Source: Demequina mangrovi
GTDB lineage: Bacteria > Actinomycetota > Actinomycetes > Actinomycetales > Demequinaceae
Direction: 5' to 3'
DNA length: 64,000 nucleotides
NCBI RefSeq assembly: GCF_000759715.1
Contig: NZ_BBLU01000004.1
Location: forward strand, 1 to 64,000
Every line of letters begins with the position of its first letter. Positions within the stretch are counted from its first letter, which is position 1. The notes under the pieces were generated by a model that saw only the letters and a list, made by a program, of their open reading frames with translations, had not been told where the DNA came from and made no database searches. This document shows, piece after piece, positions 4,278 to 60,121 of this stretch. The position numbers were made by a program, and so were the translations under genes.

Positions 4278-4279
4278 TC

Positions 4280-4295: not shown

Positions 4296-4328
4296 CCGTC
4301 CACGACTCAACGACGAGGAGACCCACCC

Positions 4329-5464: not shown

Positions 5465-5470
5465 TAGGGT
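5465..5470 (+). promoter_or_regulatory. Candidate -10 box of second GH43 gene
   Basis: TAGGGT fits the actinobacterial TANNNT -10 pattern and lies 41 bases before the GTG start of the second GH43 gene, after the terminator hairpin. The same hexamer precedes the genes at 9539 and 17541. No clear -35 is visible. Confidence 0.45.
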
Positions 5471-5510
5471 GCGAGGAGGCGTGCTCACACGCGACGACCG
5501 AGGAGCGACC

Positions 5511-40274: not shown

Positions 40275-40318
40275 GGTTCCCCCCAGTGACCAGGGAGCGA
40301 AGAAGTGCCCCCTTGCGG

Positions 40319-40353
40319 GGACTATAGTCCTTTTATCCCATTTACGAAATGGG
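40319..40353 (-). promoter_or_regulatory. gmd promoter with two palindromes
   Basis: On the minus strand TATAGT lies within the perfect 12-base palindrome GGACTATAGTCC (40319-40330). Upstream, CCCATTT (40337-40343) and AAATGGG (40347-40353) are exact arms around a 3-base centre, overlapping the -35 position, which itself matches the consensus poorly. That pattern suits a regulator site, possibly an activator. The CCCATTT half-site recurs at 35551. Confidence 0.6.
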
Positions 40354-40410
40354 GGGTGGTCGGTTCGAGAAGGCACGGCCCCTCAGAGCACAAGGACGGC
40401 CGCCGACCGC

Positions 40411-41547: not shown

Positions 41548-42472
41548 GACCTGCGTGGGCCCTTCTTTCCTGCCAGGTGAAGAAGCTGAATCCGAGCGAG
41601 CGGCGGAGGACCGCCCAGGTGAGCGTGCCGCCGACGATCGCGCCGGCGAGCGCGACCAGGGTCCACGTGTTGGAGACTCCGAGCAGCTTGAGGCCGGCGA
41701 TCATGAGCACGATCGCGAGCGAGCGGCGCACGAGCCCCCCGCCGATGCGTGAGGACAGCTGCGCACCCAGGTAGGTGCCCGGGATGGAGCCGACGATGAT
41801 CGGCAGGGTCACCGACCAGTCGACCTCCCCGAAGAGCAGATGGGCGAGCGCAGCCGCGAACACCAGGGGCACGGCCTGCGCGAGATCGGTGCCCACCAGC
41901 TGCGAGGCCTTCAGCGTCGGGTACAGCGCCATCAGCGCGATGATGATGAGCGAACCGGAACCGACCGACGTGAGCCCCACCATGAAGCCGCCGATCACGC
42001 CGACCACGATGGTGGGAACCACGCGCGGGGTCACATCGGGCCGTTCGAGCGGGAGGGGCGCCGCCGAGCCGTCGCGGTTGCGGGCACGCTCGCGCAGGCG
42101 CAGGTACGCCCGCGTGAACAGCCCGAGCGACGCGATGACGAGCACGACGCCGAGCGCCTTCTTGGTGAAGGCTTCGACCTCGGGCCCGGGACCGATCCAG
42201 TGCTGGAGGAGCACGCCGCCGAAGGCGGCCGGCACGGAGCCGTAGACCAGCAGCCTCACGAGCTTCCAGTTGACGGTCCCGTTGCGCATGTGGACCCATG
42301 AGCCGAACGGCTTCATCGCGGCGGACGCGACGACGTCCGAGGACACCGCCGTCACCGGGGGGATGTTGAAGAACAGCACGAGCGCGGGCGTCATGAGGGC
42401 GCCCCCGCCCATGCCGGTCAGGCCCACGACCACGCCGATGGCGGCGGCGATCGCGAGCAGGCCGAGGTCCAT
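41528..42472 (-). CDS. TauE/SafE family anion permease
   Basis: 314 residues with eight or so hydrophobic helices and the two-fold repeat of TauE/SafE proteins; GLTGMGGGALMTPAL in the first half and GLTSVGSGSLIIIAL in the second are the paired signature. Members move sulfite, sulfonates or sulfate. Placed between cysN and cysC it most likely supplies sulfate to PAPS synthesis, though export of a sulfur anion cannot be ruled out. ATG 42472 shares one base with the cysN stop (TGATG), so the genes are tightly coupled. Confidence 0.87.
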   Translation of the reverse strand: MDLGLLAIAAAIGVVVGLTGMGGGALMTPALVLFFNIPPVTAVSSDVVASAAMKPFGSWVHMRNGTVNWKLVRLLVYGSVPAAFGGVLLQHWIGPGPEVEAFTKKALGVVLVIASLGLFTRAYLRLRERARNRDGSAAPLPLERPDVTPRVVPTIVVGVIGGFMVGLTSVGSGSLIIIALMALYPTLKASQLVGTDLAQAVPLVFAAALAHLLFGEVDWSVTLPIIVGSIPGTYLGAQLSSRIGGGLVRRSLAIVLMIAGLKLLGVSNTWTLVALAGAIVGGTLTWAVLRRSLGFSFFTWQERRAHAGHAEPTH

Positions 42473-43719
42473 CAGTGCTCGCGCACCACTCCTGCGCCCA
42501 CCGTGCGGTTGGTCGCCTCGTCGATCAGGATGAACGCACCGGTGGACCGGTTGTCCGCGTAGTCGTCGATCAGGAGCGGGGTGGTGACCCGGAGCTTCAC
42601 GCGACCGATCGAGTTCAGCCCGAGCTCGGTGGCCTCCGGGTTCCGGTGCAGCGTGTTGACGTCGAGCTCGTACGCGATGTCCTTGACGAGCGCGCGCGCC
42701 ATGCGCGTGGTGTGCAGGAGCCCGAGCTTGCGCCCCGGGGTCAGCGCGTCGGAGTCCATCCAGCAGAGGGTGGCGTCGAGGTCCTGGGTCGGCTCGGGGT
42801 GGTTCCCCGCCCGGCACAGGATGTCGCCGCGGGAGATGTCGATCTCGTCCTCGAGGCGGATGGTCACCGACATCGGCGGCAGCGCGCTCTCGAGCGGTCC
42901 GCTGGGGCCGTCGATCGCCGCGATGGTCGACGTCATGCCGCTCGGAAGCGCCATCACCTCGTCGCCGACCTTGAGGATGCCCGAGGACACCTGCCCGGCG
43001 AAGCCGCGGTAGTCGCGCGCCTCGGAGTGCTGGGGCCGGATCACGTACTGGACCGGGAAGCGCACGTCCTGCAGATTGCGGTCGGAGGCGATGTGGACGT
43101 GCTCGAGATGATGCATGAGCGACGTGCCGCCGTACCAGGGCGTGTTGATCGAACGATCGACCACGTTGTCGCCCAGGAGCGCGGACATCGGGATCGCGGT
43201 GAGGTCCGGGATGTCGAGCTTCGCGGCGAACTCGGTGAACTCCTTGTAGATCGCGTTGTACACGTCCTCGGACCATCCGACCAGGTCCATCTTGTTGACG
43301 GCGAGCACCACGTGCGGCACCCGCAGCAGCGAGGCGATGGTCGCGTGGCGGCGCGACTGCTCGGACAGGCCCTTGCGGGCGTCCACCAGGATGATCGCAA
43401 GGTCCGCGGTCGAGGCGCCGGTCACCATGTTGCGCGTGTACTGCTGATGGCCCGGCGTGTCCGCGATGATGAACTTGCGCTTGGGCGTCGCGAAGTAGCG
43501 GTAGGCCACGTCGATCGTGATGCCCTGCTCACGCTCGGCGCGCAGACCGTCGGTCAGCAGCGCGAGGTCGGTGTACTCGGTGCCGCGGGCCTGCGAAGCG
43601 GCCTCGACGGACTCGAGCTGGTCCTCGAAGATCGACTTGCTGTCGTAGAGCAGGCGCCCGATGAGGGTGGACTTGCCGTCGTCGACCGATCCTGCGGTCG
43701 CGAAACGGAGAAGATCCAT
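42472..43719 (-). CDS. cysN: Sulfate adenylyltransferase subunit 1 (GTPase, CysN)
   Basis: 415 residues. An EF-Tu-like GTPase: P-loop GSVDDGKST at about 10-18, DTPGHQQYTRNMVTG switch II and NKMDLVGW, followed by two beta-barrel domains ending LIDEATNRTVGAGVV. With CysD it makes APS from ATP and sulfate, GTP hydrolysis driving the reaction. No fused CysC domain, in line with a separate cysC gene in the same operon. ATG 43719 shares one base with the cysD stop codon. Confidence 0.93.
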   Translation of the reverse strand: MDLLRFATAGSVDDGKSTLIGRLLYDSKSIFEDQLESVEAASQARGTEYTDLALLTDGLRAEREQGITIDVAYRYFATPKRKFIIADTPGHQQYTRNMVTGASTADLAIILVDARKGLSEQSRRHATIASLLRVPHVVLAVNKMDLVGWSEDVYNAIYKEFTEFAAKLDIPDLTAIPMSALLGDNVVDRSINTPWYGGTSLMHHLEHVHIASDRNLQDVRFPVQYVIRPQHSEARDYRGFAGQVSSGILKVGDEVMALPSGMTSTIAAIDGPSGPLESALPPMSVTIRLEDEIDISRGDILCRAGNHPEPTQDLDATLCWMDSDALTPGRKLGLLHTTRMARALVKDIAYELDVNTLHRNPEATELGLNSIGRVKLRVTTPLLIDDYADNRSTGAFILIDEATNRTVGAGVVREH

Positions 43720-44621
43720 CAGAAGTACCCTTCCTTCTTGCGGTCCTCCATCGCGGCCTCGGACACTCGGTCGTCGCCGCGGGTGGCACCGCGCTCGGTC
43801 AGCCGCGTCGACGCGGTCTCGTCGATGATCTTCTCCACGGTGTCCGCCTCGGACAGCACTGCGGCTGTGAGGGTCGCGTCGCCGACCGTGCGGTACCGGA
43901 CCGTGCGGCGCTCGATCATCTCGTCCTCGCGCGGGGTGCAGAACTCGTTCGCGGCCATCCACATGCCGTTGCGGTGGAAGACGTCGCGCTCGTGGGCCAT
44001 GTAGATGGACGGCACGGCGATCTCGCGGGAACGGATGTAGTCCCAGATGTCCAGCTCGGTCCAGTTGGACAGCGGGAACACGCGGATCGACTCGCCCTGG
44101 TGGACCCGGCCGTTGTAGAGCGACCACAGCTCGGGACGCTGGTTGCGCGGGTCCCACTGGCCGAACTCGTCGCGGAAGGAGAACACGCGCTCCTTCGCGC
44201 GGGCCTTCTCCTCGTCGCGGCGGGCGCCGCCCATGCACGCGTCGAAACGGTTCTTCTCGATCGTGTCGAGCAGCACCGGCGTCTGGATGCGGTTACGCGA
44301 ACCGTTGGGCTCCTCCCGCACGAAGCCGCGCTCGATCGCCTCCTGGACCGACCCCACCACCAGGTTGAGGCCGTGCTCCTCGACGACGCGGTCGCGGTAC
44401 TCGATGACCTCGGGGAAGTTGTGGCCCGTGTCGACGTGGACCAGCGGCATCGGCACCTTCGCGGGCGCGAAGGCCTTGAGCGCGATGTGCAGCAGCACGA
44501 TCGAGTCCTTGCCGCCCGAGAACAGCAGCGCGGGGCGCTCCATCTGCGCGACCACCTCGCGCACGATGTGGATCGCCTCAGCCTCCAGCGCGTCGAGCTG
44601 GCTGAACGAGGGTGCGGTCAT
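43719..44621 (-). CDS. cysD: Sulfate adenylyltransferase subunit 2 (CysD)
   Basis: 300 residues of the PP-loop ATP pyrophosphatase superfamily. SGGKDSIVLLH (near 36-46) is the PP-loop; HVDTGHNFPEVIEYRD, CMGGARRDEEKARAKERVFSFRDEFGQWDP and FPLSNWTELDIWDYI are standard CysD blocks. It forms ATP sulfurylase with CysN. ATG 44621 is used (GTG 44624 directly before it); it overlaps the cysQ stop by one base. No cysH or sulfite reductase gene accompanies it. Confidence 0.93.
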   Translation of the reverse strand: MTAPSFSQLDALEAEAIHIVREVVAQMERPALLFSGGKDSIVLLHIALKAFAPAKVPMPLVHVDTGHNFPEVIEYRDRVVEEHGLNLVVGSVQEAIERGFVREEPNGSRNRIQTPVLLDTIEKNRFDACMGGARRDEEKARAKERVFSFRDEFGQWDPRNQRPELWSLYNGRVHQGESIRVFPLSNWTELDIWDYIRSREIAVPSIYMAHERDVFHRNGMWMAANEFCTPREDEMIERRTVRYRTVGDATLTAAVLSEADTVEKIIDETASTRLTERGATRGDDRVSEAAMEDRKKEGYF

Positions 44622-45376
44622 CACGAGTCTCCGTCGGTGTTCTCAGCGATCGCCGCAAGGATCCGCGGCGCCAGGTCCGGACGGCACACCACCAGGTCGG
44701 GCAGGTACGGGTCCGCGTCATTGTAGAGGAGCGGCGAACCATCGATGCGGGAGGTGTGCAGCCCTGCTGCGCGTGCCACGGCGATGGGCGCCGCGGAGTC
44801 CCATTCGTACTGGCCGCCCGCGTGGACGTAGGCGTCGACCTGGCCGCGCGCGACGGCGGAGATCTTCACGCCTGCGGATCCCATGGGCACCAGCTCGGCA
44901 TCGAGTGCGGCGCGCACCGGCTCGGTGATGGCGGGCGGGCGCGAGCGCGACACGGCAAGGCGCAACGGCGCACCGTCGGTGCGCTCGGGAGCGGGAGCCA
45001 CCTCGGCGGAGTTGAGGACCAGTTCCTCGTCCGGGATCGCGACCGCGCCGAGCGTCAGATCGCCGGACTCCCACAGCGCGACGTGCACCGCCCAATCCGC
45101 GCGCCCCTCGGAGAACTCCCGCGTGCCATCGAGCGGGTCGATGATCCACACGCGCGAGGCGATGAGCCGCGCGGGGGAGTCCTTCGCCTCCTCGCTCAGC
45201 ACCGCATCGTCCGGACGATGCTCGGCCAGGAGCGCGGCGAGGACGGACTGCGCCGCGGCGTCGCCCGCCTTGCCCAGCTCCTTGCCCTCGAGCCCCGACT
45301 CCCACCGCACCCGCAGCAGTTCCTCGCCGGCGGCCCGAGCCAGCATGGTGCCCAGCTCTGCATCGCTCAATGTCAC
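44621..45376 (-). CDS. cysQ: 3'(2'),5'-bisphosphate nucleotidase (PAP phosphatase, CysQ)
   Basis: 251 residues of the inositol-monophosphatase superfamily. SEEAKD, WIIDPLDGTREFSEGR and YEWDSAAPIAVARAAG are the metal-binding motifs, in the CysQ arrangement. It hydrolyses PAP to AMP; PAP is the by-product of every PAPS-dependent sulfotransfer and inhibits sulfotransferases. As first gene of the operon it fits a sulfation, rather than only an assimilation, role. GTG 45376 follows GAAGGGACG. It diverges from the DUF4012 gene over a 146-base gap. Confidence 0.92.
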   Translation of the reverse strand: MTLSDAELGTMLARAAGEELLRVRWESGLEGKELGKAGDAAAQSVLAALLAEHRPDDAVLSEEAKDSPARLIASRVWIIDPLDGTREFSEGRADWAVHVALWESGDLTLGAVAIPDEELVLNSAEVAPAPERTDGAPLRLAVSRSRPPAITEPVRAALDAELVPMGSAGVKISAVARGQVDAYVHAGGQYEWDSAAPIAVARAAGLHTSRIDGSPLLYNDADPYLPDLVVCRPDLAPRILAAIAENTDGDS

Positions 45377-47864: not shown

Positions 47865-47903
47865 GATCGGAGGGGATGCGGCATTGCCGCATCCCCTCCG
47901 ATC
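47865..47903 (+). terminator. Perfect 18-bp hairpin terminator
   Basis: Arms 47865-47882 and 47886-47903 are exact complements with the 3-base loop ATT, starting 17 bases after the surface-protein stop codon. It closes the DUF4012/surface-protein unit. Confidence 0.82.
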
Positions 47904-48076
47904 GCGTTCGGGGGTCGTTCGAGCGCCACCTATGTTCGGGGCCAACGCGGTCCAGGTGGGCACGGCGTTCCGCCCACAAAGTAAGACCGTCGACTACGGT
48001 CAGTACACCGATGACGGGTCGGCTCATGTGCTCCCGGCGAGCCTGCGGCCAAGCCTCCGCCGCGGGATATCACTCG

Positions 48077-49456
48077 ATGCGTTTGACCGGTTGCTCTTAT
48101 CCCGCAAGACATGAGGAGTGCGCTACGTTCCACAACCTACTGCTGAAGGCGCGCCAGCTTCGCAATTCGCCTCACCTCAAGCACACCGGTGTCACCGCCG
48201 CCGTGACATACGTAGGAGTGGCGACAAGCCTGCTTTCGGCGCCGTTGGTCGCGCGCACGCTCGGCGCCGACGGCCGGGGAATGGTGGCGTCCGCCACGGC
48301 CGTGATCACCACGCTCGCCGTGGCTGCGTTCCTTGGGCTTCCGCGGGGCATGGGACTTCGCTTCGCACAGCAGGACGAGCGGTCGAACAGTGGCCTTGTT
48401 GTCATCGGCGGACTTGGGGTCATTGCAGCTGTCGCGGCGGTGCTCGCTGCGCCGCACCTGAGCAACGACAACCCGCAGACGACCGCGCTTATCCGCATCG
48501 CCTCGCTCGTACTGGTGTTTGCAGGCTACGGTCGACTGGGTGACGAGATCGCCATGATCCAGGGGCGATATGTCCTGCACAACGTCATCCGATCGGCCAC
48601 CTTGGTACTTCCGTCAACCGTACAGATCTTGTTGTTCGCGACGGGGCACCTCACGGTGGCATCGGCCTTCGCCGCCATGCTTGCCGGTCAGGTGCTCGCG
48701 ATCGGTATGGGGGCTGTCACGGCGGTGATGGACTTGCGTAGCGCGTCGACAGCGCCGACGCCTTGGGCGTTCAGCATCCGCCATTGGTCTAATACGGTGA
48801 TTGAAGCGCTCACCGGGAACCTCGATGTTGTCCTGCTGGCTGCGTGGAGCCACCCTGCCGAGGTCGGTGTCTACGCAGTCTCCGTCACTGTCGCAAATGC
48901 CACGGGTGGACTGACTCAGGCGCTCAACCAGACGCACTATGCGCGCTTTGCGGCGGCGGTGCGACGTGGTGAGCGAGTCTCGCTCAAGCGGGCGAGCAGG
49001 ACGGGATTGGCGTTGTCGGTGACAGTGGGGACTGTCGCTGCCATTGGCCTCTGGTTCGCGGCTGAACCCGTGTTTGGGCCCGACTTCGCGGCCCTCCCCG
49101 CAATCGGCGCGCTGATGATCGTGGCGCGAGCGATACAGGATCAGTGGCGCCTACGTGTCTTTCACGCCTCCGCGACACAGAAGAACGGTATGGTTGCGCC
49201 TGCGTCGGTGGCGGGTCTCGTCGTGCTTGTGAGTGCCTCAGCGCTCTTGCACGCGGAAGGAATGCTCGATGCTCGCATGATGGCGGCCACGATGATTGCG
49301 ATGGGCGCTTTCCGTGTTGGCCTCTATGGACTTCTCTCGAGGCGCAAGAGCGCGAAGATCCGTGCTCGCGTGGGAAGGGCTCAACGCGATCCGGCGGTTG
49401 AGAATGAACATCCCGCTACCGCCGCGAAGAGCCAGACTGAGCCTGGGGCACGTTGA
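48077..49456 (+). CDS. Wzx-type polysaccharide flippase (set 2)
   Basis: About 459 residues, twelve or more helices; THGxTAAVTYVGVA-like first helix (HTGVTAAVTYVGVATSLLSAPLVARTLGADGRG region, from about residue 40) and the family-typical R-T-L-G-A-D-G-R-G loop place it with oligosaccharide flippases. The start is a problem: ATG 48077 is in frame but lacks a ribosome site, whereas GAGGAG at 48113-48118 points to a start near 48127-48130 where no standard start codon is in frame. The long C-terminal tail is polar. Base composition is lower in G+C than genes before 47 kb. Confidence 0.78.
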   Translation: MRLTGCSYPARHEECATFHNLLLKARQLRNSPHLKHTGVTAAVTYVGVATSLLSAPLVARTLGADGRGMVASATAVITTLAVAAFLGLPRGMGLRFAQQDERSNSGLVVIGGLGVIAAVAAVLAAPHLSNDNPQTTALIRIASLVLVFAGYGRLGDEIAMIQGRYVLHNVIRSATLVLPSTVQILLFATGHLTVASAFAAMLAGQVLAIGMGAVTAVMDLRSASTAPTPWAFSIRHWSNTVIEALTGNLDVVLLAAWSHPAEVGVYAVSVTVANATGGLTQALNQTHYARFAAAVRRGERVSLKRASRTGLALSVTVGTVAAIGLWFAAEPVFGPDFAALPAIGALMIVARAIQDQWRLRVFHASATQKNGMVAPASVAGLVVLVSASALLHAEGMLDARMMAATMIAMGAFRVGLYGLLSRRKSAKIRARVGRAQRDPAVENEHPATAAKSQTEPGAR

Positions 49457-49519
49457 CACGTGTCGACCTCAAGCGCAGGGTAGTGGAGCGCTGCCGCCTT
49501 GTGTCGCTATGCTCCGCAT

Positions 49520-50215
49520 ATGTTGAGGGGTTATACGCGCGTCCGACAGGCTGCGTGCAGGGTGCGCCACGCGCTCTCCGCCAAGCCTGCAGTCCACTTT
49601 CTTCATCTGCCGAAGACAGGTGGTACAGCGGTGCGCGAAGCACTCAAGGGACAGGAGTTCGCCGGCGACTACAGGCTCCGCCTTCACGGGCACCGAACGA
49701 CGCTCATGGACATCCCGGTGGGCGAGCGCGTCATCTTCGCGATGCGGGATCCGGTTTCGCGATTCGAGTCTGCGTTCCGCAGCCGGCAGCGCCAGGGACG
49801 CCCACGCTACAACGTCCCGTGGACCACTGTCGAAGCTGAGGTGTTTGGCACGTTTGCCGATGCGAACGCGTTGGCGGTTGCTCTCGGTGAACCGGGAACC
49901 GTAGCGGGTGAGTTGGCGCGCCGCGCTATGTCGGAAGTCGGCCACTTCAGGCCCGTCACGAACTGGCTGGGCAGCGAGCACGATCTTGCGCGACGTGGCG
50001 ACGATATCTTCTTTGTGTTGAAGCAGTGGACGTTGGATGCCGACTTCGCCGAGCTCACGGCGTCTCTCGGGTTGGACACGAAGCTTCCGCAAGGCGACAC
50101 GGATGCGCATCGCTCCCCCGAGAGTGGTGGGACGACGATTGGCCCAATCGGGCTCGCCCACCTCCGAGAGTGGTACAGCGAGGACTACCGGATTCTCCAT
50201 GCACTCACGGAGTAG
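49520..50215 (+). CDS. Sulfotransferase (Sulfotransfer_2-like)
   Basis: Predicted PAPS-dependent carbohydrate sulfotransferase of 231 residues, no signal or membrane helix. FLHLPKTGGTAVRE places the 5'-phosphosulfate loop at residues 31-36; AMRDPVSRFESAFRSR supplies the 3'-phosphate site with Arg76 and Ser80. The spacing is that of the group including 2-O and chondroitin-type sulfotransferases. It likely sulfates an EPS precursor inside the cell. ATG 49520 is chosen over TTG 49499. It converges on the next sulfotransferase, stop codons 10 bases apart. Confidence 0.82.
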   Translation: MLRGYTRVRQAACRVRHALSAKPAVHFLHLPKTGGTAVREALKGQEFAGDYRLRLHGHRTTLMDIPVGERVIFAMRDPVSRFESAFRSRQRQGRPRYNVPWTTVEAEVFGTFADANALAVALGEPGTVAGELARRAMSEVGHFRPVTNWLGSEHDLARRGDDIFFVLKQWTLDADFAELTASLGLDTKLPQGDTDAHRSPESGGTTIGPIGLAHLREWYSEDYRILHALTE

Positions 50216-50224
50216 CAGTGCGTG

Positions 50225-51052
50225 CTAGTCCGCCCAGGGCAATGGACGGCCGAGCATAGTCCGCAACTCCACCGAGTCTTCGGCATACAGTGCCCGCAGT
50301 TCCGCGGCCACAGTCTCGTCGATGCCGTCGTACACCCGCGTGTTGCGCGGCGCGAAGTCAACGGATTCAGTCGCGCGCATTGGCCGGCCAATATGGGAAG
50401 CGGCGGCACTGACGAAACTGCGGGGGTCAGCGAACAGGTCCGAGGAGAAGCCGACAAGGATCTGTTCGGCGGGAAACTCGGCGTACCACCGCTTCAGTTG
50501 GCGGGCGTAGAAGCCGCGCTCCGCGTAGCTGAAATGCTCGGCTGCGGGAGCACGCAAGGCTCCGTTGCGAAGTGACCGCCATGCACCCGCGGTGCGTTCT
50601 TGCTCGAGTCTGAGGGCGGTTGCGAAGTCCTCCAACGGCTCGGTTCCGCGCGCACGTGAATGCTGGAAGTGCGAATACGCACGTTCGACTGGATCGCGAA
50701 GCACCGCGATGATGCGTGCCCGCGGAATCAGCGACGCGGCGCGATGAGGCACCTCAGGGTGTGCGAGGTAGAAGGGTGTGGCATCTCCGACGGCCCAGGA
50801 GTCGGAGCCCGGGCGGTCGTCCCGCGGGAAGTGGGCGCGATACCACGAGGCGCTGCGTTCATGGTTGTGGTCGAAGTAGTGAACTTCCTTGCGGAACGCT
50901 GGGCGGTAGTCTGAAAGTTGGTCGAGATACGCGCTCAGCGAGGTCGTTCCCGATTTCTGCGCGCCGATGATCAGGTAGTCAGGCAACGCCCGCCGACGCG
51001 CATCGGCCCTGCGTAGCGAGAACTTGAAACGGTTGCGTTGGCGCTCCATCAT
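50225..51052 (-). CDS. Sulfotransferase (Sulfotransfer_1, heparan-sulfate-type)
   Basis: 275 residues. DYLIIGAQKSGTTSLSAYL gives the 5'-PSB loop at 29-37, KEVHYFD matches the N-sulfotransferase/3-O type signature K-E-x-x-Y-F, and VLRDPVERAYSHFQ the 3'-phosphate site (Arg119, Ser127). It is therefore a different family branch from the convergent neighbour. No signal peptide, so it would act on cytoplasmic, lipid-linked intermediates. Donor PAPS can come from the cys operon 5 kb away. Minus-strand orientation with the BY-kinase gene upstream-divergent context suggests its own promoter within the 101-base gap after 51052. Confidence 0.88.
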   Translation of the reverse strand: MMERQRNRFKFSLRRADARRRALPDYLIIGAQKSGTTSLSAYLDQLSDYRPAFRKEVHYFDHNHERSASWYRAHFPRDDRPGSDSWAVGDATPFYLAHPEVPHRAASLIPRARIIAVLRDPVERAYSHFQHSRARGTEPLEDFATALRLEQERTAGAWRSLRNGALRAPAAEHFSYAERGFYARQLKRWYAEFPAEQILVGFSSDLFADPRSFVSAAASHIGRPMRATESVDFAPRNTRVYDGIDETVAAELRALYAEDSVELRTMLGRPLPWAD

Positions 51053-51153: not shown

Positions 51154-52536
51154 CTACTTTGTTGCGCTCTCTGCGTAGCTGTAGCCGTAGCGTCCATATC
51201 CGTACGCATCGGGTCCCTTGGTCGGGAGCATCGTGAGCACCACCCCGGAAAGCGGGGCGCCGACCGTCTCCAGGCTCGCGATGGCGTTTTCGACCTGAGG
51301 GGCGTGAGCTTTTCCGGCCGCGACCACCAGGACGGTGCCGCCGACCAGGCGAGCGAGGACTGCAGCATCGGTCACCGGCAAGAGGGGCGGCGCGTCGTAG
51401 AGCACCACGTCGAATTCGCCGTCGAGCTTGTGGATCAGCGACTCCATCAACGAGCTTCCCAGAAGCTCGGAAGGATTCGGGGGAATGGATCCGGCAGGGA
51501 GCAGGTGAAGGTCGCTGCGGCCCCATCGCTGGATTGCATCTGCGAGCTCAAGTCTGCCGATCAGAACGTCGGTGAGACCCACGCCAGCTTCGACACTCAT
51601 GTACTGCGCCATCTTGGGCTTGCGGAGGTCAGCTCCGACGAGCAGTACGCGGGCTCCGGCATCCGCGAGCGTGATCGCGAGGTTGGCAGCGGTGGTCGAC
51701 TTGCCCTCGGACGGCACAGATGAGGTGATGACGAAGCTCCGTTCGCTTCGATCTGCGTCGAGGAACTGCAGGTTGGTACGCAGGGTTCGGAAGGACTCCG
51801 CACGGGGACTCATGGCGTCTTCGTGAACAATCAAAGGCCGAGTCTTGGCTTTCGGGTCAAAGACAATGCCACCGAGGACAGGTGCGTCGGTGATCCTCTC
51901 CAGGTCTCGCTCGTTCCGAACACGGGTGTCGAGCGTGGTACGCAGCACTGCGAGGCCGACGCCCAGCGCGAGGCCCAGGAGAAACCCGAGTGCAACGTTG
52001 AGCGTCTTCTTCGGAGCAGTTGGCACGGAGGGCACCTCTGCCTCCTGGACAACCGTAAGGCGCACGGGTGAGCCCGCCGCGGAGTCGGTCGTCTCGATCG
52101 ACTCGACTGTGTCAATTAGTTGTTGCGCGACAGCGGTTGCCAGTGAAGCTGAGAAGACGGGATCGGAGTCTGTGACCGTCACATCGATGACGGTCGTGCT
52201 TTGCGGTGCGGTTGCGGAGACCTTCCCTCGCACTGAGGCGACAGATCTGTTGAGCCCCAGGTCGTCGATCACCGGCTGAAGCACCGCAGAAGTCTTGACG
52301 AGGTCGGCATACGTCTTGACGCGCTGCTGCGTGAAGGAGTTGCCCTGTGCCAGCTCGGAGACATCGCTGGAGTTCGACGTGGAAACGAAGACCTTCGCCG
52401 ACGCTGTGTAGGTCGGCTCGGCGACGACGGAGTACGCAAGACCCGCGCCGCCACCGAGGACGGTGAGGACGACGATTGCAATCCAGTTCTTGCGAAGAAT
52501 GCGAAGGTAGTCCTGAAGTTCCACGGTATTCCTCAC
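51154..52536 (-). CDS. Polysaccharide co-polymerase with BY-kinase domain (set 2)
   Basis: 460 residues: Wzz domain with helices about 18-37 and 180-198, then a kinase domain with Walker A at 273-281 (SVPSEGKST), Walker A' at 298-305 and Walker B at 377-382. In Walker A' the first Asp is Gly301 (LLVGADLR), unlike set 1. The C-terminus keeps the usual tyrosine cluster (AYGYGRYGYSYA), the autophosphorylation tail that set 1 lacks. It would govern chain length of the second polymer. GTG 52536 is used; GTG 52524 is possible. Divergent from the priming-enzyme gene. Confidence 0.9.
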   Translation of the reverse strand: MRNTVELQDYLRILRKNWIAIVVLTVLGGGAGLAYSVVAEPTYTASAKVFVSTSNSSDVSELAQGNSFTQQRVKTYADLVKTSAVLQPVIDDLGLNRSVASVRGKVSATAPQSTTVIDVTVTDSDPVFSASLATAVAQQLIDTVESIETTDSAAGSPVRLTVVQEAEVPSVPTAPKKTLNVALGFLLGLALGVGLAVLRTTLDTRVRNERDLERITDAPVLGGIVFDPKAKTRPLIVHEDAMSPRAESFRTLRTNLQFLDADRSERSFVITSSVPSEGKSTTAANLAITLADAGARVLLVGADLRKPKMAQYMSVEAGVGLTDVLIGRLELADAIQRWGRSDLHLLPAGSIPPNPSELLGSSLMESLIHKLDGEFDVVLYDAPPLLPVTDAAVLARLVGGTVLVVAAGKAHAPQVENAIASLETVGAPLSGVVLTMLPTKGPDAYGYGRYGYSYAESATK

Positions 52537-52638
52537 TGCGGGGCCTCGGGTAGGCCGCGCGCTCGCAATTGTTCCATGCGCGCGGGCCAGTTAAGTGAAC
52601 TTCGTTGCGGCACTGCAAGTGCGCTCGGTCACACCCGG

Positions 52639-52644
52639 TACCCT
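52639..52644 (+). promoter_or_regulatory. -10 box of a leaderless priming-enzyme gene
   Basis: TACCCT ends 7 bases before GTG 52652, the spacing expected when transcription starts at the start codon. No clear -35. Confidence 0.5.
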
Positions 52645-52651
52645 GATGCGC

Positions 52652-54127
52652 GTGACCGAGGGGGAAGAAATCGCGCACGTGGGCTCGTCGCACGCAATGT
52701 ACGGACGTGGCGGCTGGGCACGTCGTATCGAACGGCGGCTGGCATGGAGCGACTCCTTCGTGATCGTCGTGGTGATGGTCGGCGCGCATGCGGCGCGCTT
52801 CGGGTGGGACCCCCTTGCAGCCGTTGCGGGCCCATCGGCCACGCCCTACTGGCAGGTATCTGTTTCGGTGGCGGTGCTCTGGGCGCTGCAACTTGGGTGG
52901 GCGCGGTCTCGCGAGCCTCGTGTGCTGGGGCACGGGCCCAAGGAATTCCAGCGTGTGCTGATCGCCAGCTGGCGGACATTTGCCATCGTCGCGATCGTTG
53001 GGTTTCTTACCCAGTGGCAGATCAGCCGCGGCTATCTCCTATTCGCGCTACCGCTCGGCGCCGTTGTGCTGGTCGTGTATCGCGCGGCATGGCGAAAGCT
53101 CATACACGCGCAACGGGACAGGGGCGACCTGCTGGCCCAAGTCTTGGTCGCGGGTCCGGCGCGCACGAGCGAGCAGATGATCCGGCGGCTGCAGCGCAAT
53201 CGGCGGGCCGGGTACAACGTAATCGGCGCGTGCGTGCCCGGCGGATCTCGTGCGCGGAAGACTCCGCTGTTGGAAGGCGTGCGCGTAGCGGGATCGCTCG
53301 AAGACACGGCTGAGGTCGCGATGAGCCTGGGCGCGGAATACGTCCTGTTGTCGGGCAGCGACGCGATGTCGTTGCGCGAGGCACGGCAACTGGGATGGGA
53401 GCTCGAAGGCACGGGCATCGGGCTGATCGTCGCCCCAGCCCTGGTTGACGTGGCCGGGCCAAGAGTGTCGATGACCCCTGTCGAAGGCCTCCCGCTGATC
53501 CACGTCGAGGCCCCACAGTTCACGGGATCTCAGCGTGTCGCGAAGGAGATATTCGACCGCGCGAGCGCGCTGGCGTTCCTGTTCGTGGGGGGAATACCCA
53601 TGCTGGTCATTGCAGCCGCCATTCGGCTCTCCAGTCCGGGCCCTGCGCTGTTCCGTCAGGTGAGGGTGGGAAGAGATCACCAGTTGTTCACCATGTACAA
53701 GTTCCGGTCCATGTACGTCGATGCAGAAGAGCGACTGGCTCTGCTCGCAGGTCAGAGCGATGGGAATGGCGTGCTCTTCAAGATGCATGACGACCCCCGA
53801 GTCACAAGGATTGGCCGCGTCCTGAGGCGGTTTTCGCTCGACGAGCTCCCTCAGCTGTTGAACGTCCTCAAAGGCGACATGTCCATGGTTGGCCCGCGTC
53901 CGCCGCTGCCACGAGAGGTGGAGCAGTGGGATGAACGTGTGTCTCGGCGCCAACTAGTCAAGCCTGGCGTGACAGGCCTGTGGCAAGTTAGCGGAAGGTC
54001 GGACCTGAGCTGGGACGAGGCTGTGCGGCTCGATCTGTATTACACCGAGAATTGGAGCCTAGCGTCGGACGCCGTGATCGTGCTCCGCACCCTCGGCGCG
54101 ATCTTCTTCGGCCGCGGCGCTTACTAG
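52652..54127 (+). CDS. Polyprenyl-phosphate sugar-1-phosphate transferase (EPS priming enzyme, set 2)
   Basis: 491 residues, paralogue of the enzyme at 19480 with the same order: four helices, a nucleotide-binding-like middle domain (VLVAGPARTSEQMIRRL), one helix, and a catalytic domain with YKFRSMYVDAEE, VGPRPPLP and KPGVTGLWQVSGRSD; both proteins end in GRGAY. It would start the second repeat unit. GTG 52652 is taken because a TACCCT -10 lies 7 bases before it, suggesting a leaderless mRNA; ATG 52646 and GTG 52595 are in frame upstream. First gene of a long operon with GT4 genes. Confidence 0.92.
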   Translation: MTEGEEIAHVGSSHAMYGRGGWARRIERRLAWSDSFVIVVVMVGAHAARFGWDPLAAVAGPSATPYWQVSVSVAVLWALQLGWARSREPRVLGHGPKEFQRVLIASWRTFAIVAIVGFLTQWQISRGYLLFALPLGAVVLVVYRAAWRKLIHAQRDRGDLLAQVLVAGPARTSEQMIRRLQRNRRAGYNVIGACVPGGSRARKTPLLEGVRVAGSLEDTAEVAMSLGAEYVLLSGSDAMSLREARQLGWELEGTGIGLIVAPALVDVAGPRVSMTPVEGLPLIHVEAPQFTGSQRVAKEIFDRASALAFLFVGGIPMLVIAAAIRLSSPGPALFRQVRVGRDHQLFTMYKFRSMYVDAEERLALLAGQSDGNGVLFKMHDDPRVTRIGRVLRRFSLDELPQLLNVLKGDMSMVGPRPPLPREVEQWDERVSRRQLVKPGVTGLWQVSGRSDLSWDEAVRLDLYYTENWSLASDAVIVLRTLGAIFFGRGAY

Positions 54128-54137
54128 GAGACTGAGG

Positions 54138-55241
54138 ATGGCTGGACTCATCGTTCAGGAGTGGATCGAGAACCGCGGTGGCGCCGAGAAGGTCGTAGCC
54201 CAGATGGTCGAGGCCCTTCCTGGCGCTGCGGTGGTCGCGCTCTGGGATGACACGGACGGTGCGGCGCTCGATGTACCCGTAGCCGAGACGGTCCTCGCGC
54301 GTACACCCTTGCGCAGATCGAAGGCTGCAGCGCTTCCCCTGATGCCTATCGTCTGGCGGAGGCTCGATCTCAACCCGACCCCGGACTGGCTACTGTCGAG
54401 CTCCCACGCTTTCGCGCATCACGCTCGACTTCGCGGGGCCCCGGAGGTGCCGCGGTATGCGTATGTTCACTCGCCCGCTCGGTACCTCTGGAGCCCCGAG
54501 CACGATGGTCGGGGTGCGCACCCCGCGATCCAAGCGCTGGGCGCGCCGTTGCGCGCTATTGACCGCGTGCGCGCGCAGGAACCGGGGCAAGTCTTCGCGG
54601 CGAATAGCGCGTTCGTGCGGGAGAGGATCGAAGCCGCCTGGGGTGTGCCGGCCGAGGTGATCTACCCGCCCGTCGACATAGATCGGTTTGCGCGGGCCGA
54701 GCCCGTGTTGGAGCACGGCGAGGAGTTGATCCTCGAACGTCTCCCTGGTGAGTTCATCCTGGGTGCGTCTCGTTGGGTCCCGTACAAGGGGATGGACAAG
54801 ATCATTCGGATGGGACACGCGTTGGGCATCCCGACGGTCATTGCCGGCGGCGGCCCGGAGGATGAACGGCTAGTCGCGCTTGCCGCGGATCTCGGTGCGC
54901 CTACGGTATTTGTCCGCCACCCATCCGACGGGCTCCTGGAGGAGTTCTATAGGCGGGCCATCGCGTTCGTGTTCCCTCCGGTGGAGGACTTCGGAATCAT
55001 GCCGGTTGAAGCCATGGCGGCAGGTTGCCGTGTCATCGTGAACGCAGCTGGCGGGACAGCGGAGTCGGTTGTCGACGGGACGACCGGTGTCCACGTGGAG
55101 GATTTCGACGATGTCTCGGCCCTGCGAGCTGCCGTCGACCGACTTGAGAGGATTGACCGGGCGGCTCTGCCCGGATACGCGACGCGTTTCAGCCCCGAAC
55201 GTTTCCGCGAGGGACTCCGTCGTTGGATGGGCTTGGCGTGA
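54138..55241 (+). CDS. Glycosyltransferase family 4 (operon of set 2, first)
   Basis: 367 residues. The N-terminus lacks the usual long acceptor domain motif but has IVQEWIENRGGAEKVVAQMV, seen in a branch of GT4 proteins, and RYAYVHSPARYLWSPEHD. The donor half has FILGASRWVPYKGMDKII and PVEDFGIMPVEAMAAGCRVIV, with the E-D-F-G...E motif. ATG 54138 has AGGAG upstream, 10 bases after the priming enzyme, so it probably transfers the second sugar of the repeat. The stop overlaps the next GTG. Confidence 0.88.
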   Translation: MAGLIVQEWIENRGGAEKVVAQMVEALPGAAVVALWDDTDGAALDVPVAETVLARTPLRRSKAAALPLMPIVWRRLDLNPTPDWLLSSSHAFAHHARLRGAPEVPRYAYVHSPARYLWSPEHDGRGAHPAIQALGAPLRAIDRVRAQEPGQVFAANSAFVRERIEAAWGVPAEVIYPPVDIDRFARAEPVLEHGEELILERLPGEFILGASRWVPYKGMDKIIRMGHALGIPTVIAGGGPEDERLVALAADLGAPTVFVRHPSDGLLEEFYRRAIAFVFPPVEDFGIMPVEAMAAGCRVIVNAAGGTAESVVDGTTGVHVEDFDDVSALRAAVDRLERIDRAALPGYATRFSPERFREGLRRWMGLA

Positions 55242-56377
55242 CGCGCGATCGGGGCGCGGGCGGTGGAGATTCTCCCGCGACCATTCCGCGCGTGCTCTTC
55301 GTCGACCACACCGCGGTGCCGGGCGGGGCGGAGCTTGCCCTCGCGCGGCTCATGGGGCTCACGACCCTCGACTGTAGCGTCGCCTTCCTTGCTGACGGCC
55401 CGATCGCACAGGCGATCGAACGATCGCGTCCTGGTTCGACTCAGGTGTTTGCGGGCGGCTCGAGGTTCGCGCAGGTGCGTTGGCTCCGCAGCGTCTCGCG
55501 CGACCGCATCATCGTCTCGAACTCCCTGAGAGCCACGCTCCTGTGCGCTATCGCGGGTGTGCCGCGCCGTAGGCATGTGATGTTGCTCCGAGACGGGGTT
55601 GATGCGGTCTCGCTCGCCCCGGAGAAGCGTGCGATGACGATGTTGGCTCTCACCCGCGTCGGGGGCATCCTTGCGAACAGCGGATGGAGTCGGTCGACTT
55701 TGCCCGCATTCGCGCGCAAGCGTGCCGCCGTGGTCTTCACGCAATCAGGAGTCACTAGCGCCTCGGTTGCTGTGAGTACCGAGCGCTCGCGGGAACCGGA
55801 TCCGACGATACGGATCGTCTTCCTTGGCCGGCTTGCGCCGTGGAAGGGCGCGCACGTGCTGCTTGACGCCGTCGAGATACTTGGTCGGCGCGGTGTAACC
55901 GGCTTCGATGTGGTGATTGTCGGCGGTTCCCTCTTCGCGGACGAAAGCTACGCCGCGTCGCTTCGTACCCGAGTGGCGCAAGCCGATCTTCCTATCGTGT
56001 TTGCCGGCCATGTGGAGGACGTCGGCAGTTTCTTGGAGACGGCACACATCCTGGTCCATGCTTCGACTCGGCCCGAGCCGTTCGGCCAGGTGCTGGTTCA
56101 GGGGCTCGGCCACGGATGCGCGGTAATCGCGACTGCCGGAGGCGGCCCTTCCGAGTTGCTTGAGGAGCTCGCGACGGATGGCTTGGTGCCGATGGGTGAC
56201 CCCGATGCACTCGCAGACGCGCTCGCCCGGCTTGTCCGAGAGCCGGGACTCCGGGCCGCGCTTGCGCGCACCGGGCTTGTGATCGCCGAGCGATACACGG
56301 ACGAGGCGACCGTCGAGCTCTTTGACGCAGAATTGCGCAGGTATGTTGCAGGTGGCGGACGGATGGGGTCGGAGTGA
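55238..56377 (+). CDS. Glycosyltransferase family 4 (operon of set 2, second)
   Basis: 379 residues. Acceptor half starts RVLFVDHTAVPGGAELALARLM; donor half shows IVFLGRLAPWKGAHVLLDAVEIL and STRPEPFGQVLVQGLGHGCAVIAT, with E-P-F-G-x-V replacing the usual E-G-F-G. GTG 55238 overlaps the previous stop by 4 bases (GTGA). Translational coupling argues that it acts next in line on the same oligosaccharide. Donor unknown. Confidence 0.87.
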   Translation: MTRDRGAGGGDSPATIPRVLFVDHTAVPGGAELALARLMGLTTLDCSVAFLADGPIAQAIERSRPGSTQVFAGGSRFAQVRWLRSVSRDRIIVSNSLRATLLCAIAGVPRRRHVMLLRDGVDAVSLAPEKRAMTMLALTRVGGILANSGWSRSTLPAFARKRAAVVFTQSGVTSASVAVSTERSREPDPTIRIVFLGRLAPWKGAHVLLDAVEILGRRGVTGFDVVIVGGSLFADESYAASLRTRVAQADLPIVFAGHVEDVGSFLETAHILVHASTRPEPFGQVLVQGLGHGCAVIATAGGGPSELLEELATDGLVPMGDPDALADALARLVREPGLRAALARTGLVIAERYTDEATVELFDAELRRYVAGGGRMGSE

Positions 56378-57444
56378 GAGTCAGCATGATCGGGTCGGAG
56401 TGGTTCGAGGCCCGGCCCGGAGGCCTAAACCGGTATTTCGACGGGCTCGCGCGGGCGATGGCGGACGAAGCTGATGTGGACCTTAGCGCGTGGGCGTTCG
56501 GCGCCGCACCGTCGTATGGGCGGTCGGTGGGCCCGCTCGGGATGTCGTTGGTCGAACGGGTGCGACGCACAGCGAAGCTCGCTGGCGCATCTGACGCCGA
56601 CATCATCGATTGCCATTTCGCCCTGTATGGTCAGTCGACGATAGTGCGCCAGCCTCCCCGAGTCGTGCATTTTCACGGCCCGTGGGCCGAGGAGAGCGCG
56701 GTGTCCAGCGAGCGTCGACAGGTCGTCGCGCTCAAGCGGCTCGTCGAGCGTCGCGCCTACCGCGGCGCCGATGCATTCGTCACGCTGTCCGAGGCATTCA
56801 AGGCTGTTGTCATTGAGAAGTTCCAGGTGGATCCAGCACGCGTCTCCGTGATCCCACCCGGCGTGGACATCGACCGATTCCAGCCTTCCTTTGCGGCGCC
56901 GACGGCTCCACGCGCGCTCTGTGTGCGCCGCCTCGAGCGACGCATGGGCATCGACGTGCTGCTAAGGGCGTGGAGAGAAGTCGTCACGAACGTGCCTGAT
57001 GCGCAGCTGCATGTGGTGGGCAGTGGGACCTTTGAGCAGGCGTTGCGATCGCTCGCGTCGGAGCTCGGCCTGGATCACTCCGTGTTCTTCCTCGGACGGA
57101 TCTCCGACGAGGAGCTCGCCTCGGCGTATGCGTGCGCGACGTTCTCTGTGGTGCCGACGGTCGCACTTGAGGGCTTCGGATTGATCTCACTCGAGTCGAT
57201 GGCGAGCGGCTGTCCGGCGATCGTCACCGATTGCGGGGGCCTGCCCGACGCGGTGCGCCCGCTCGACGAGTCGCTCGTCGTCGAGGCGGGAAGCGAAGAG
57301 GCGCTCGCTGTGCGCATGCTGCAGGCCTTCGCCGGACAGCTTCCAAGCCGACGTGCATGTCGGGCGCACGCGGAGTCCTACTCGTGGCGGAGCGTCGCAA
57401 CACGCCATGTGGACCTCTACAGGGAGCTGGAGGCCATGCGATGA
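56374..57444 (+). CDS. Glycosyltransferase family 4 (operon of set 2, third)
   Basis: 356 residues: VSMIGSEWFEARPGGLNRYF at the N-terminus with the G-G-L-x-R-Y loop, VHFHGPWAEES in the middle, and a donor half with VRRLERRMGIDVLLRAW and TVALEGFGLISLESMASGCPAIVT (both glutamates present). GTG 56374 overlaps the previous stop (GTGA). Third of four coupled GT4 genes. Confidence 0.88.
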   Translation: MRVSMIGSEWFEARPGGLNRYFDGLARAMADEADVDLSAWAFGAAPSYGRSVGPLGMSLVERVRRTAKLAGASDADIIDCHFALYGQSTIVRQPPRVVHFHGPWAEESAVSSERRQVVALKRLVERRAYRGADAFVTLSEAFKAVVIEKFQVDPARVSVIPPGVDIDRFQPSFAAPTAPRALCVRRLERRMGIDVLLRAWREVVTNVPDAQLHVVGSGTFEQALRSLASELGLDHSVFFLGRISDEELASAYACATFSVVPTVALEGFGLISLESMASGCPAIVTDCGGLPDAVRPLDESLVVEAGSEEALAVRMLQAFAGQLPSRRACRAHAESYSWRSVATRHVDLYRELEAMR

Positions 57445-58505
57445 CGAGCCGTTTCAAGGTTCTGATGGTGAGCCCCGAGTGGCCCAGCGCCAGTGGTGAG
57501 CATTTGGGCGGCGTCGGCCGGTACGCGTTCCGTCTTGCGGAAAGCCTGAGCGCTTTCGTTGATCTTGACGTGGCGACGCTTGACAATCCGATGCCGCTCG
57601 ACGGCGTGCGATTCATCGAGCTCGGCGCGCCACGCACGCGCCTTCAGCGGTACTACGGCCTGCCATGGCGTGCGCGACGGGCGTTGCAGTGCCGCCAGTA
57701 TGACATCGTGCACTCGCATGGCGACGACTGGGCGCTACGGCTGAGGGGCACGCCCCTTGTCCGCACGTTCCACGGAAGCAGCTGGCGCGAAGCAGTGAGC
57801 TCCCGTGGCGCCCGTCGCATGAATCACGTGGTGCTCGCTGCCCTGGAGCATTTCTCGGCACGGCGCGCACGGGTTCGGATCGCGGTCGGCCTCGATTCGC
57901 AGGAGGAGTTCCACTGTGACATGGTGATGCCGCCCATTCAGAGGGTGTCACGTGCCGGGCTGAGCAAGCACGAGCGCCCGTCCTTCGTGTTCATCGGCTC
58001 ATTCCACGGGAGGAAGCGTGGAGCGGTTGTGCTTGAAGCAGTCGAGCACGCGCGGCAGTTCGAGCCTAACCTGTCACTTGATGTGGTGGGGCCACCAGGC
58101 GATGCATCGAACTGGCCGAGTTGGGTGCGCCATCACAGCGGCATCGCCGACGCCCAAGTGTATGAGCTCATCGAACGCAGTTGGGCGCTCCTCGCGCCGT
58201 CGAGCTACGAGGGGTTCGGCATTCCGGTGTTCGAAGCCGCTGCGCTCGGTACTGTGGCGGTCGCCAGTCCCAACCCAGGCAGCAAGTTCATCGCTGGGCG
58301 ATTTGGGGCCTCCCTAGTGATCCGGCTGCGTGATGACAGCGGCTTCGTCGAGGAGGTCTTGTCGATCGCGCAGGCTGTCGCGGCGCCGTCAAGTGTCGAC
58401 CCGGAAGGAGACCGCCGTGCCGTCGAGGGAATGCTCGCAGACGCGAGTGCGCGGACACTCATCGAAAAGGTCTATGCGCGGCTGCTTGGTGGACGCCGCC
58501 CCTAG
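57441..58505 (+). CDS. Glycosyltransferase family 4 (operon of set 2, fourth)
   Basis: 354 residues. Acceptor half: VLMVSPEWPSASGEHLGGVGRYAF, VHSHGDDWALRL; donor half: FVFIGSFHGRKRGAVVLEAV and PSSYEGFGIPVFEAAALGTVAVAS. ATG 57441 overlaps the previous stop (ATGA). Last gene of the coupled run that begins with the priming enzyme, so the lipid-linked unit may receive at least four further sugars here; order by gene position is an assumption. Confidence 0.88.
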   Translation: MTSRFKVLMVSPEWPSASGEHLGGVGRYAFRLAESLSAFVDLDVATLDNPMPLDGVRFIELGAPRTRLQRYYGLPWRARRALQCRQYDIVHSHGDDWALRLRGTPLVRTFHGSSWREAVSSRGARRMNHVVLAALEHFSARRARVRIAVGLDSQEEFHCDMVMPPIQRVSRAGLSKHERPSFVFIGSFHGRKRGAVVLEAVEHARQFEPNLSLDVVGPPGDASNWPSWVRHHSGIADAQVYELIERSWALLAPSSYEGFGIPVFEAAALGTVAVASPNPGSKFIAGRFGASLVIRLRDDSGFVEEVLSIAQAVAAPSSVDPEGDRRAVEGMLADASARTLIEKVYARLLGGRRP

Positions 58506-58779: not shown

Positions 58780-59820
58780 TCAGCGGGCAACGACGCGAGA
58801 AGTCAGCGCTTCCGGGGCCCGGAATAGCCACGCAACACGCAAGCGATCCGCGATGGAATAGAGCAGGAGGGGCCCTACGACCCCGACGCTCACGCTCACC
58901 ACCACTAGTACCGGCAATGAGTGGACCTCCAGCGCCAGCAGCGCTGCACGCGCACCCACGGCGAACACGATATGCCCGAGGAAGACCGCCATGGAACGTG
59001 CTCCGATGTAGGCGAGTGCAACCCCTCGCCGGCCGGAGGCGAGCAACCGCGCTGCCGCGAGCACCGCTACGAGGCCGAGCGTAGACGCCAGGACTCCGAG
59101 AACTATCGATTCGACATCGCGCGTTGCGCCGCCGGTGGTGGGCGGCGTCGCCGGTTGCAGCACGGCGATCGCCGCCATCGCGGTGAAGCTCGCGACTGCC
59201 GTTGCGGACAGCATTGCCGTCGAGAAGCGAGCTTGGAAACGCACGAACCTTTCCCCACGCCAAACCACGCCCACCATGTAGTACCCAGTGAGTGCGGCGC
59301 CCTGCGTTCCCAGATAGGGCCCGTTCAGGCCCCAGGTGGCTACCGAGACGGCGGCCGCAACAGCAAGGACGACCCACCCTCCCGAACGGTTGAGCCATGG
59401 GTTCAGTGCTGCGGCGACAAGCGTGACAATCGCAATCCATCCGAGGAACCACAGTTGCCCATCGGGATTCCACAGTTGCAGCAGAGTCGTCGGCGATGCC
59501 TCGCCGTTGGTGGCGGTATCGCCCAGAATCTTGGCGGCCCCTTGAACGATTGACCACACCATGTAGAGCCAAAGGAAGGTCACATCGCGCCGCACTGCAT
59601 ACGCCCATCGACCTTCGCGGTCGAGGCCCTGTCGGACAAAGAGCCCTGCAACGAAAGCGAATACGGTGAGGTGCCACATGTACAGCGACGCGTCGACTGC
59701 TTCGAACAGCGCCTTGGAGTTCACTACGCCTGCCGCGTTCAGTCCGCGCCACACGTGGCCGGCAACAATGGCGATGATCGCGATGCCCTTGGCGATGTCG
59801 AGCGAGCGGTCTCTGGACAT
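58780..59820 (-). CDS. Acyltransferase family 3 (intact, set 2)
   Basis: 346 residues with about ten helices. The first helix RSLDIAKGIAIIAIVAGHVW contains the D-x-x-K-G...G-H pattern of fucose-4-O-acetylase/acyltransferase-3 enzymes, with the active-site His in GHV. It would O-acetylate sugars of the polymer. TAAGAT at 59827-59832 (plus coordinates) lies 6 bases before ATG 59820 and TTGCCA 15 bases further, so the mRNA seems leaderless. It is the only one of three acyltransferase-3 genes here that is intact. Confidence 0.83.
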   Translation of the reverse strand: MSRDRSLDIAKGIAIIAIVAGHVWRGLNAAGVVNSKALFEAVDASLYMWHLTVFAFVAGLFVRQGLDREGRWAYAVRRDVTFLWLYMVWSIVQGAAKILGDTATNGEASPTTLLQLWNPDGQLWFLGWIAIVTLVAAALNPWLNRSGGWVVLAVAAAVSVATWGLNGPYLGTQGAALTGYYMVGVVWRGERFVRFQARFSTAMLSATAVASFTAMAAIAVLQPATPPTTGGATRDVESIVLGVLASTLGLVAVLAAARLLASGRRGVALAYIGARSMAVFLGHIVFAVGARAALLALEVHSLPVLVVVSVSVGVVGPLLLYSIADRLRVAWLFRAPEALTSRVVAR

Positions 59821-60121
59821 GACCGAATCTTAGTGGGCCTGGTGAGTTGGCAACGGAGACGGGCAGGAGCACCCGCGTGAGCCTCCCTGAAACGCTTTCG
59901 CTCGCAGCCAAACTCTGGGTCGGCCAGATGGCCCGCCACGCTCGCGGGAGTCTCCGAAATCCGCCTGGGCGATGTCACAGCGGGAGGGTGGGGCAGAGGG
60001 AGCCGCGCGGCGGAGCCAAGCGCGAAGGCGCGGATCAAGGTCGACGCCGCCTACACGACTCGGAGAAGTGGAGACAGGCAGGCTGCAGCTGGGATGCTTG
60101 CCCTTTTCGGGCACAAGTTGC
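59821..60121. other. Intergenic region, 301 bases, between two acyltransferase genes
   Basis: Apart from the TTGCCA/TAAGAT promoter of the downstream acyltransferase (59827-59853, minus strand), nothing is recognised. A small stem around 60100-60120 (TGCCC-TTTTC-GGGCA) follows the stop of the frameshifted gene in the opposite sense and is too weak to call. Confidence 0.4.

Follow-up and report, generated by a model that had tools for sequence, protein, structure and literature searches.

Two distantly related sulfotransferase genes placed tail to tail in a probable sulfated-exopolysaccharide locus of Demequina mangrovi

Two sulfotransferase-like genes of different type stand tail to tail in the genome of Demequina mangrovi, which raises the question of what each encodes, how the two are related and what they might sulfate. 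We analyzed them within a 64,000-nucleotide stretch of DNA, referred to here as the window. The first-pass annotation had described the genes as convergent neighbors, and both open reading frames were recovered in that arrangement.

49520-50215, plus strand: ST+, putative HS2ST-like (Sulfotransfer_2-related) sulfotransferase; P-loop KTGGT, invariant His (HGH), RDPxxRFxS
50216-50224: gap of 9 bp between the ST+ and ST- stop codons, tail to tail
50225-51052, minus strand: ST-, putative heparan-type (NST/3-OST-like) sulfotransferase; GAQKSGTT loop, KE(56)xHYF, RDPxxRxxS

The ST+ frame extends over 49499-50215 from a possible TTG, with an ATG start at 49520 and a TAG stop at 50215. For both genes, the third-position G+C is 0.74 versus 0.50-0.52 at the second position, which fits coding sequence. 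A scan for promoters and terminators around the pair gave one promoter-like and one terminator-like site where shuffled sequences are expected to give 0.3 and 0.9, i.e. a signal at about the shuffle level.

The identity of ST+ was not evident from family models, as the protein matched no Pfam family at E ≤ 10, and thus fell below the PF03567 (Sulfotransfer_2) cut-off, and no NCBIfam model at E ≤ 0.1. In PHROGs, the single match was a family named galactose-3-O-sulfotransferase (4.4e-5). A tblastn search of plasmids retrieved 12 records, two of them annotated as sulfotransferase family 2; the best homolog, from Burkholderia arboris, is 41% identical over 92% (E 4e-37), and a Phaeobacter plasmid gene carrying the family 2 annotation (E 7e-12) has capsule-type genes around it and another gene of its kind at a distance of 8 kb. 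When the ST+ family was aligned, 28 of its 33 members, a count that excludes the ST+ of the window itself, matched PF03567 at E ≤ 0.1 (best 6.4e-11). Residues H23, K26, G28, G29, H52, R70, P72, R75 and S78 (numbered from position 49538), among others, are invariant in 32 sequences of the family; we take K26 to be the P-loop lysine and R70 and S78 to be the 3'-phosphate Arg and Ser, and we assume that this motif pattern is common to ST+ and HS2ST.

Comparison of ST+ profiles with PDB sequences was marginal, yielding HS6ST3 at 4.4e-4 and a designed alphaRep fusion at 8.4e-4. The alphaRep matches were dismissed as repeat artefacts, designed proteins scoring nearly as strongly as HS6ST3. An AlphaFold2 model built from 32 rows had a mean pLDDT of 93.3 and placed H52 after the second strand (residues 45-49). 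Foldseek returned nothing at E ≤ 0.001 for this model, its best match being HS2ST at 7.3e-3. VIA-align, used as a second look at the Foldseek list, ranked HS2ST first (4ndz, Z 13.2, rmsd 3.7, 202 aligned, 14% identity; 3f5f, Z 12.9), followed by 3-OST-3 and 6-OST near Z 10.8, and the best 50 rows were sulfotransferases, including two Teg12 rows whose titles do not name the activity and which we presume to possess it. From its family and predicted fold, we rejected the possibility that ST+ is a non-sulfotransferase P-loop protein. Judged in this way, ST+ is a divergent relative of Sulfotransfer_2 with an HS2ST-like predicted fold, rather than a Pfam member.

ST- was more readily placed, since it exceeds the Pfam cut-offs of both Sulfotransfer_1 (52.1 vs 22 bits) and Sulfotransfer_3 (46.7 vs 27). 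The single sequence matched NDST1 (1nst) at 7.5e-21, and a 14-row profile matched 3rnl at 5.3e-51, 3-OST-3 (1t8t) at 5.4e-34 and NDST1 at 7.9e-28. K55 is invariant in the 14-row alignment. E56 aligns with a Glu of NDST1, which we take to be the catalytic base of that enzyme; at the E56 position, 9 of the 14 rows have Glu, 3 have Ser and 2 have Gly. Structure prediction from the single ST- sequence gave a pLDDT of 36. By sequence family, ST- is thus classed as a sulfotransferase of the heparan NST/3-OST type. Its relatives at 54-55% identity in two genus mates (G011 and G020) adjoin other sulfotransferase genes there.

Most of the earlier description of the pair withstood this comparison. The P-loops it had reported are present (HFLHLPKTGGT in ST+; GAQKSGTT, together with RKEVHYFD, in ST-), and its assignment of the plus-strand gene to a Sulfotransfer_2-like branch and of the minus-strand gene to a heparan-type branch agrees with the matches above. 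It had also argued that the two represent different branches rather than a duplication, and recent duplication of one gene could be ruled out, the best BLASTP match between them covering 27 residues around the RDPxxR motif at E 0.006. The word "unrelated" proved too strong, because hhalign aligned the two profiles over 136 columns (92.3%, E 5.5e-7) and VIA-align found 3-OST and NDST1, too, to be similar to the ST+ model, at Z 10-11. Profile alignment and model therefore place ST+ and ST-, at the level of family and predicted fold, as distant members of one P-loop superfamily with no duplication between them.

In order to ask what the two enzymes might serve, we considered the surrounding genes, among which the first-pass annotation had overlooked a third sulfotransferase (at 61433) and a PAPS cassette (40.4-45.4 kb). 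Polysaccharide genes flank ST+ and ST- on both sides.

39243-40376, minus strand: gmd, GDP-mannose 4,6-dehydratase (TIGR01472 over cut-off)
47876-49456, plus strand: Wzx-type flippase (PF13440)
51154-52536, minus strand: Wzz/chain-length and tyrosine-kinase-like protein (PF02706)
52595-54127, plus strand: initiating sugar transferase (PF02397, 1.3e-64)
54138-58505, plus strand: four GT4-type glycosyltransferases
58780-61081, minus strand: two membrane acyltransferases, 58780-59820 and 60122-61081 (PF01757)
61433-62365, plus strand: ST3, Sulfotransfer_3 protein (Pfam 8.9e-15; CurM sulfotransferase 7.6e-10)
62314-63840, plus strand: Wzy-like polymerase/ligase, a weak assignment (PF04932, 4.7e-4, below cut-off)

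Genome-wide, two Sulfotransfer_3 and two Sulfotransfer_1 matches were obtained at E ≤ 0.001, and these correspond to ST- and ST3. Two further genes lie past the end of the window, on contig C30 at 64801-65622 (plus strand) and 65562-66431 (minus strand; the pair is 801-2431 in locus L011). They are convergent with overlapping 3' ends and 41% mutual identity and look like an inverted duplication, unlike ST+ and ST-. Both contain a P-loop and the RxPxxRxxS pattern and score below the Pfam Sulfotransfer_1 cut-off (0.05 and 0.095); they had no plasmid match, and one protein (P0004) gave no meaningful PDB match. We class them, weakly and on sequence features, as sulfotransferase-like.

Two side observations concern neighboring reading frames. 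Adjoining the island are five consecutive ORFs (L011, 7196-10884) with twin-arginine-like starts of the form RRRxxxGxAWxxPAxxxA. The adjacent ORFs 4266-5360 and 5469-6527 both carry IPNPIVLQRADPCVLRHDG near the start and are probably a tandem duplication.

The G+C content of the island (47.2-67.8 kb) is 64.4%, compared with 70.3% at 1-46 kb and 70.2% at 69-84 kb, and this lower value suggests that the island was acquired from elsewhere. ST+ itself is rare among related genomes: we found no match in 43 genus mates and, among 98 relatives searched, two weak matches, neither of them in the genus; a survey of 396 genomes of the phylum found the family at E ≤ 1e-10 in three, one of them its own. 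Such scarcity, in an island of lower G+C, would fit one of the two genes, most likely the more divergent ST+, being an inactive relic in a horizontally acquired island. We regard this as very unlikely, as the ST+ frame is open, all family-invariant residues are retained and the model is confident. A viral origin was also considered and rejected. ST+ has viral relatives at no fewer than 69 loci, the best of which by E-value is 31% identical among the matches listed, below the best cellular relatives (up to 47% among the matches listed); for ST-, no viral relatives were found.

Near the island, a cassette for sulfate activation leads into gmd, all genes being on the minus strand in the order cysQ-like, cysD, cysN, TauE-family, APS kinase, gmd.

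44621-45376, minus strand: cysQ-like PAP phosphatase of the inositol-phosphatase family (bisphos_cysQ 1.4e-30, below its cut-off)
43719-44624, minus strand: cysD, ATP sulfurylase small subunit (TIGR02039 over cut-off)
about 42472-43719 (start approximate), minus strand: cysN, ATP sulfurylase GTPase subunit (TIGR02034 over cut-off)
41528-42475 (start approximate), minus strand: TauE/SafE-family membrane transporter (PF01925, 2.5e-44)
40411-41547, minus strand: cysC-type APS kinase carrying an additional N-terminal region (PF01583, 1.2e-55, residues 201-351; TIGR00455 over cut-off)

Because a second cassette with the same gene order is present on contig C27 (L009, 6330-11313; 84% DNA identity over 4.1 kb), one of the two is an extra copy. 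Protein identity between the cassettes is 94% for CysD, 89% for CysN, 86% for CysQ, 79% for TauE and 58% for CysC; the spread from CysD to CysC resembles the outcome of uneven conversion or of a mixed origin. A third match to the PAPS-reductase family, probably CysH, lies on contig C31.

We surveyed 44 genomes of the genus, with the APS kinase alone representing the cassette. A full-length kinase was found in 24 (25 had been reported, and G019, a partial match at E 2.7e-4, was dropped), Sulfotransfer_1 at E ≤ 0.001 in 12, with 11 over the cut-off, and Sulfotransfer_3 in 15. The union of the two sulfotransferase families comprises 15 genomes, all 15 of which carry the kinase, whereas none of the 20 genomes lacking it has a Sulfotransfer_1 or Sulfotransfer_3 match (Fisher 5.7e-6, uncorrected for kinship). 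In only five of these 15 genomes (G000, G034, G010, G017 and G024) are the kinase and a sulfotransferase no more than 25 kb apart on the same contig, many of the assemblies being fragmented. Two full-length kinase matches occur in G000 only; G030 has one plus a fragment at a contig start. Since 9 of the 24 kinase-bearing genomes have no match to either sulfotransferase family, the cassette is not for sulfation only.

Sulfotransferase and PAPS genes thus stand in or beside a polysaccharide cluster, and we consider it likely that this is a sulfated-exopolysaccharide locus in which ST+ and ST- act as PAPS-dependent carbohydrate sulfotransferases serving a Wzx/Wzy-type polymer. As regards catalysis, acceptor identity, division of labor and sulfation of the polymer, we infer the following scheme. 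CysD-CysN and CysC would make PAPS from sulfate and ATP and so supply ST+, ST- and ST3, whose cytoplasmic substrate would be the lipid-linked repeat unit (or nascent sugars), modified before export by Wzx; the cysQ-like enzyme would clear the product PAP. The hydroxyls or amino groups that receive sulfate may differ between the sulfotransferases; that ST+ and ST- use different acceptor positions, as proposed from the outset, is a sensible expectation from their family membership. Heparan NST/3-OST enzymes use a glutamate as base, and E56 is probably the base in ST-. In ST+ this role probably falls to the invariant H52, as in HS2ST, where His142 is the putative catalytic base and its alanine mutant is reported to bind PAPS but to retain less than 1% activity (PMC6094399); by analogy, this suggests a candidate role for H52.

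The family match itself leaves the acceptor unfixed, so that a glycolipid, a small molecule or a cell-wall polymer might be sulfated instead; bacterial sulfotransferases are described as acting on rhizobial Nod factors and mycobacterial lipids (PMC8205485), and the nearest solved structure to ST3, by sequence, is the polyketide sulfotransferase CurM. We find such an acceptor unlikely, given that the remaining scanned gene calls between 47.9 and 63.8 kb are for polysaccharide assembly or acyl modification and that ST- and ST+ resemble glycan sulfotransferases.

Whether the two enzymes travel together can be judged from relatives elsewhere. Scanning genome contigs with ST+ retrieved at least 58 loci from several phyla, and the 58 listed loci, whose flanks differ in length, were scanned with profiles of both families and then sorted into three groups, the 25 of the close family, the next 21 and the 12 weakest. 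Among the loci listed, a heparan-type gene lies near the ST+ relative in 8 of the 25 in the close family, which come from other phyla, in 0 of the next 21 and in 1 of the 12 weakest (Fisher 0.004 for 25 vs 21 and 0.0035 for 25 vs 33, the split having been made after seeing the data). The two genes are tail to tail in Cyanobium (L018, 86 bases between matched stretches) and in a Chthoniobacterales MAG whose frames are broken (L060, 176 bases), and in tandem on a short Thermoplasmata-binned contig (L017, 43 bases) and in a Flavobacteriales MAG (L020, 203 bases); in L021, L022, L030 and L038 they are 1.5-5.4 kb apart. All seven partners scanned (those of every locus but L022) pass the Pfam cut-off of Sulfotransfer_1 or Sulfotransfer_3. 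The tally omits a weak heparan-profile match in L016 (3e-7, 0.4 kb before ST+) and those in L050 and L052, which are the ST+ gene itself.

Such recurrence could mean that the pairing is an inherited two-enzyme module. We built a tree of 19 heparan-type proteins, including six of the eight close partners and that of L066 (L022 and L060, with broken frames, were left out). The six partners are not united, with bootstrap support unsettled and several branches long, and the ST- of the window clusters, at 98/99, with the proteins of two genus mates in which ST+ is missing. An inherited module is accordingly highly improbable in our estimation; because the tree does not unite the partners, the pairs seem, from these sequences, to have come together several times and not to descend from one ancestral pair.

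Other features of the ST+ family were less regular. The Burkholderia arboris protein (L012, 11935-14418; also L031) combines an ST+-like domain with another that resembles a sulfotransferase (Sulfotransfer_3 at 2.4e-4, short of the cut-off) and a long tail. In L037, cysD, cysN and cysC are 6-10 kb from the ST+ relative. Among the 49 listed ST+-family loci of at least 10 kb, two have cys genes and only nine have polysaccharide genes of the window type by tblastn, an insensitive search.

The locus is of a kind already known from synechan, Vibrio and Cobetia. The xss cluster for synechan in Synechocystis sp. PCC 6803 is also a Wzx/Wzy exopolysaccharide cluster, and its two sulfotransferases, XssA and XssE, "belong to distinct subfamilies" (PMC8205485), like ST+ and ST-. 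It is, however, cyanobacterial, the available portion of that paper does not mention a PAPS cassette within it (PMC8205485), and its two sulfotransferases compare with three in our window and two sulfotransferase-like genes beside it. The sulfated-capsule cluster of Cobetia marina KMM 1449, whose sulfated polymer was determined chemically, contains, as here, cysD, cysQ, cysN/cysC and a sulfate permease along with sulfotransferase genes, but it is described as an ABC-transporter capsule with fused cysN-cysC, which are separate here (PMC11766843). That of Vibrio sp. KMM 8419 likewise has second copies of cysC, cysN and cysD and three sulfotransferase genes, a combination of PAPS genes and sulfotransferases that its authors call a hallmark; it differs in being an ABC-transporter capsule and in having one sulfotransferase, among its three, that is attributed to an O-antigen (PMC11641403). 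At the protein level, HS2ST (4ndz, 3f5f) is the best fold match of the ST+ model, yet at 14% identity, and ST- falls in the sequence family of heparan NST/3-OST (1nst, 1t8t) and 3rnl but is bacterial.

Among the open-licence papers listed by our searches, we found no described case in actinobacteria or of this cluster kind. A 2021 paper presented sulfated bacterial polysaccharides as exclusive to cyanobacteria (PMC8205485), and sulfated capsules of marine bacteria have been described since (PMC11641403, PMC11766843); such polymers are wanted as heparin-like materials (PMC13125312). A Wzx/Wzy-type locus that combines several sulfotransferases from different families with a PAPS supply of its own, in a GC-rich actinobacterial genome, would widen the range of known producers, and would be a source of bacterial HS2ST-like enzymes, which current family models may overlook. 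More speculatively, and with odds that we put as rather low, HS2ST-like and heparan-type enzymes may have been paired repeatedly across unrelated bacterial lineages (as well as on a single archaeon-binned contig) to write a GAG-like two-position sulfate code, which would make this locus a factory for a multi-sulfated exopolysaccharide. If true, such a factory would comprise a PAPS cassette of its own and as many as five sulfotransferase-like genes, in an actinobacterial lineage for which the literature we found describes no earlier case.
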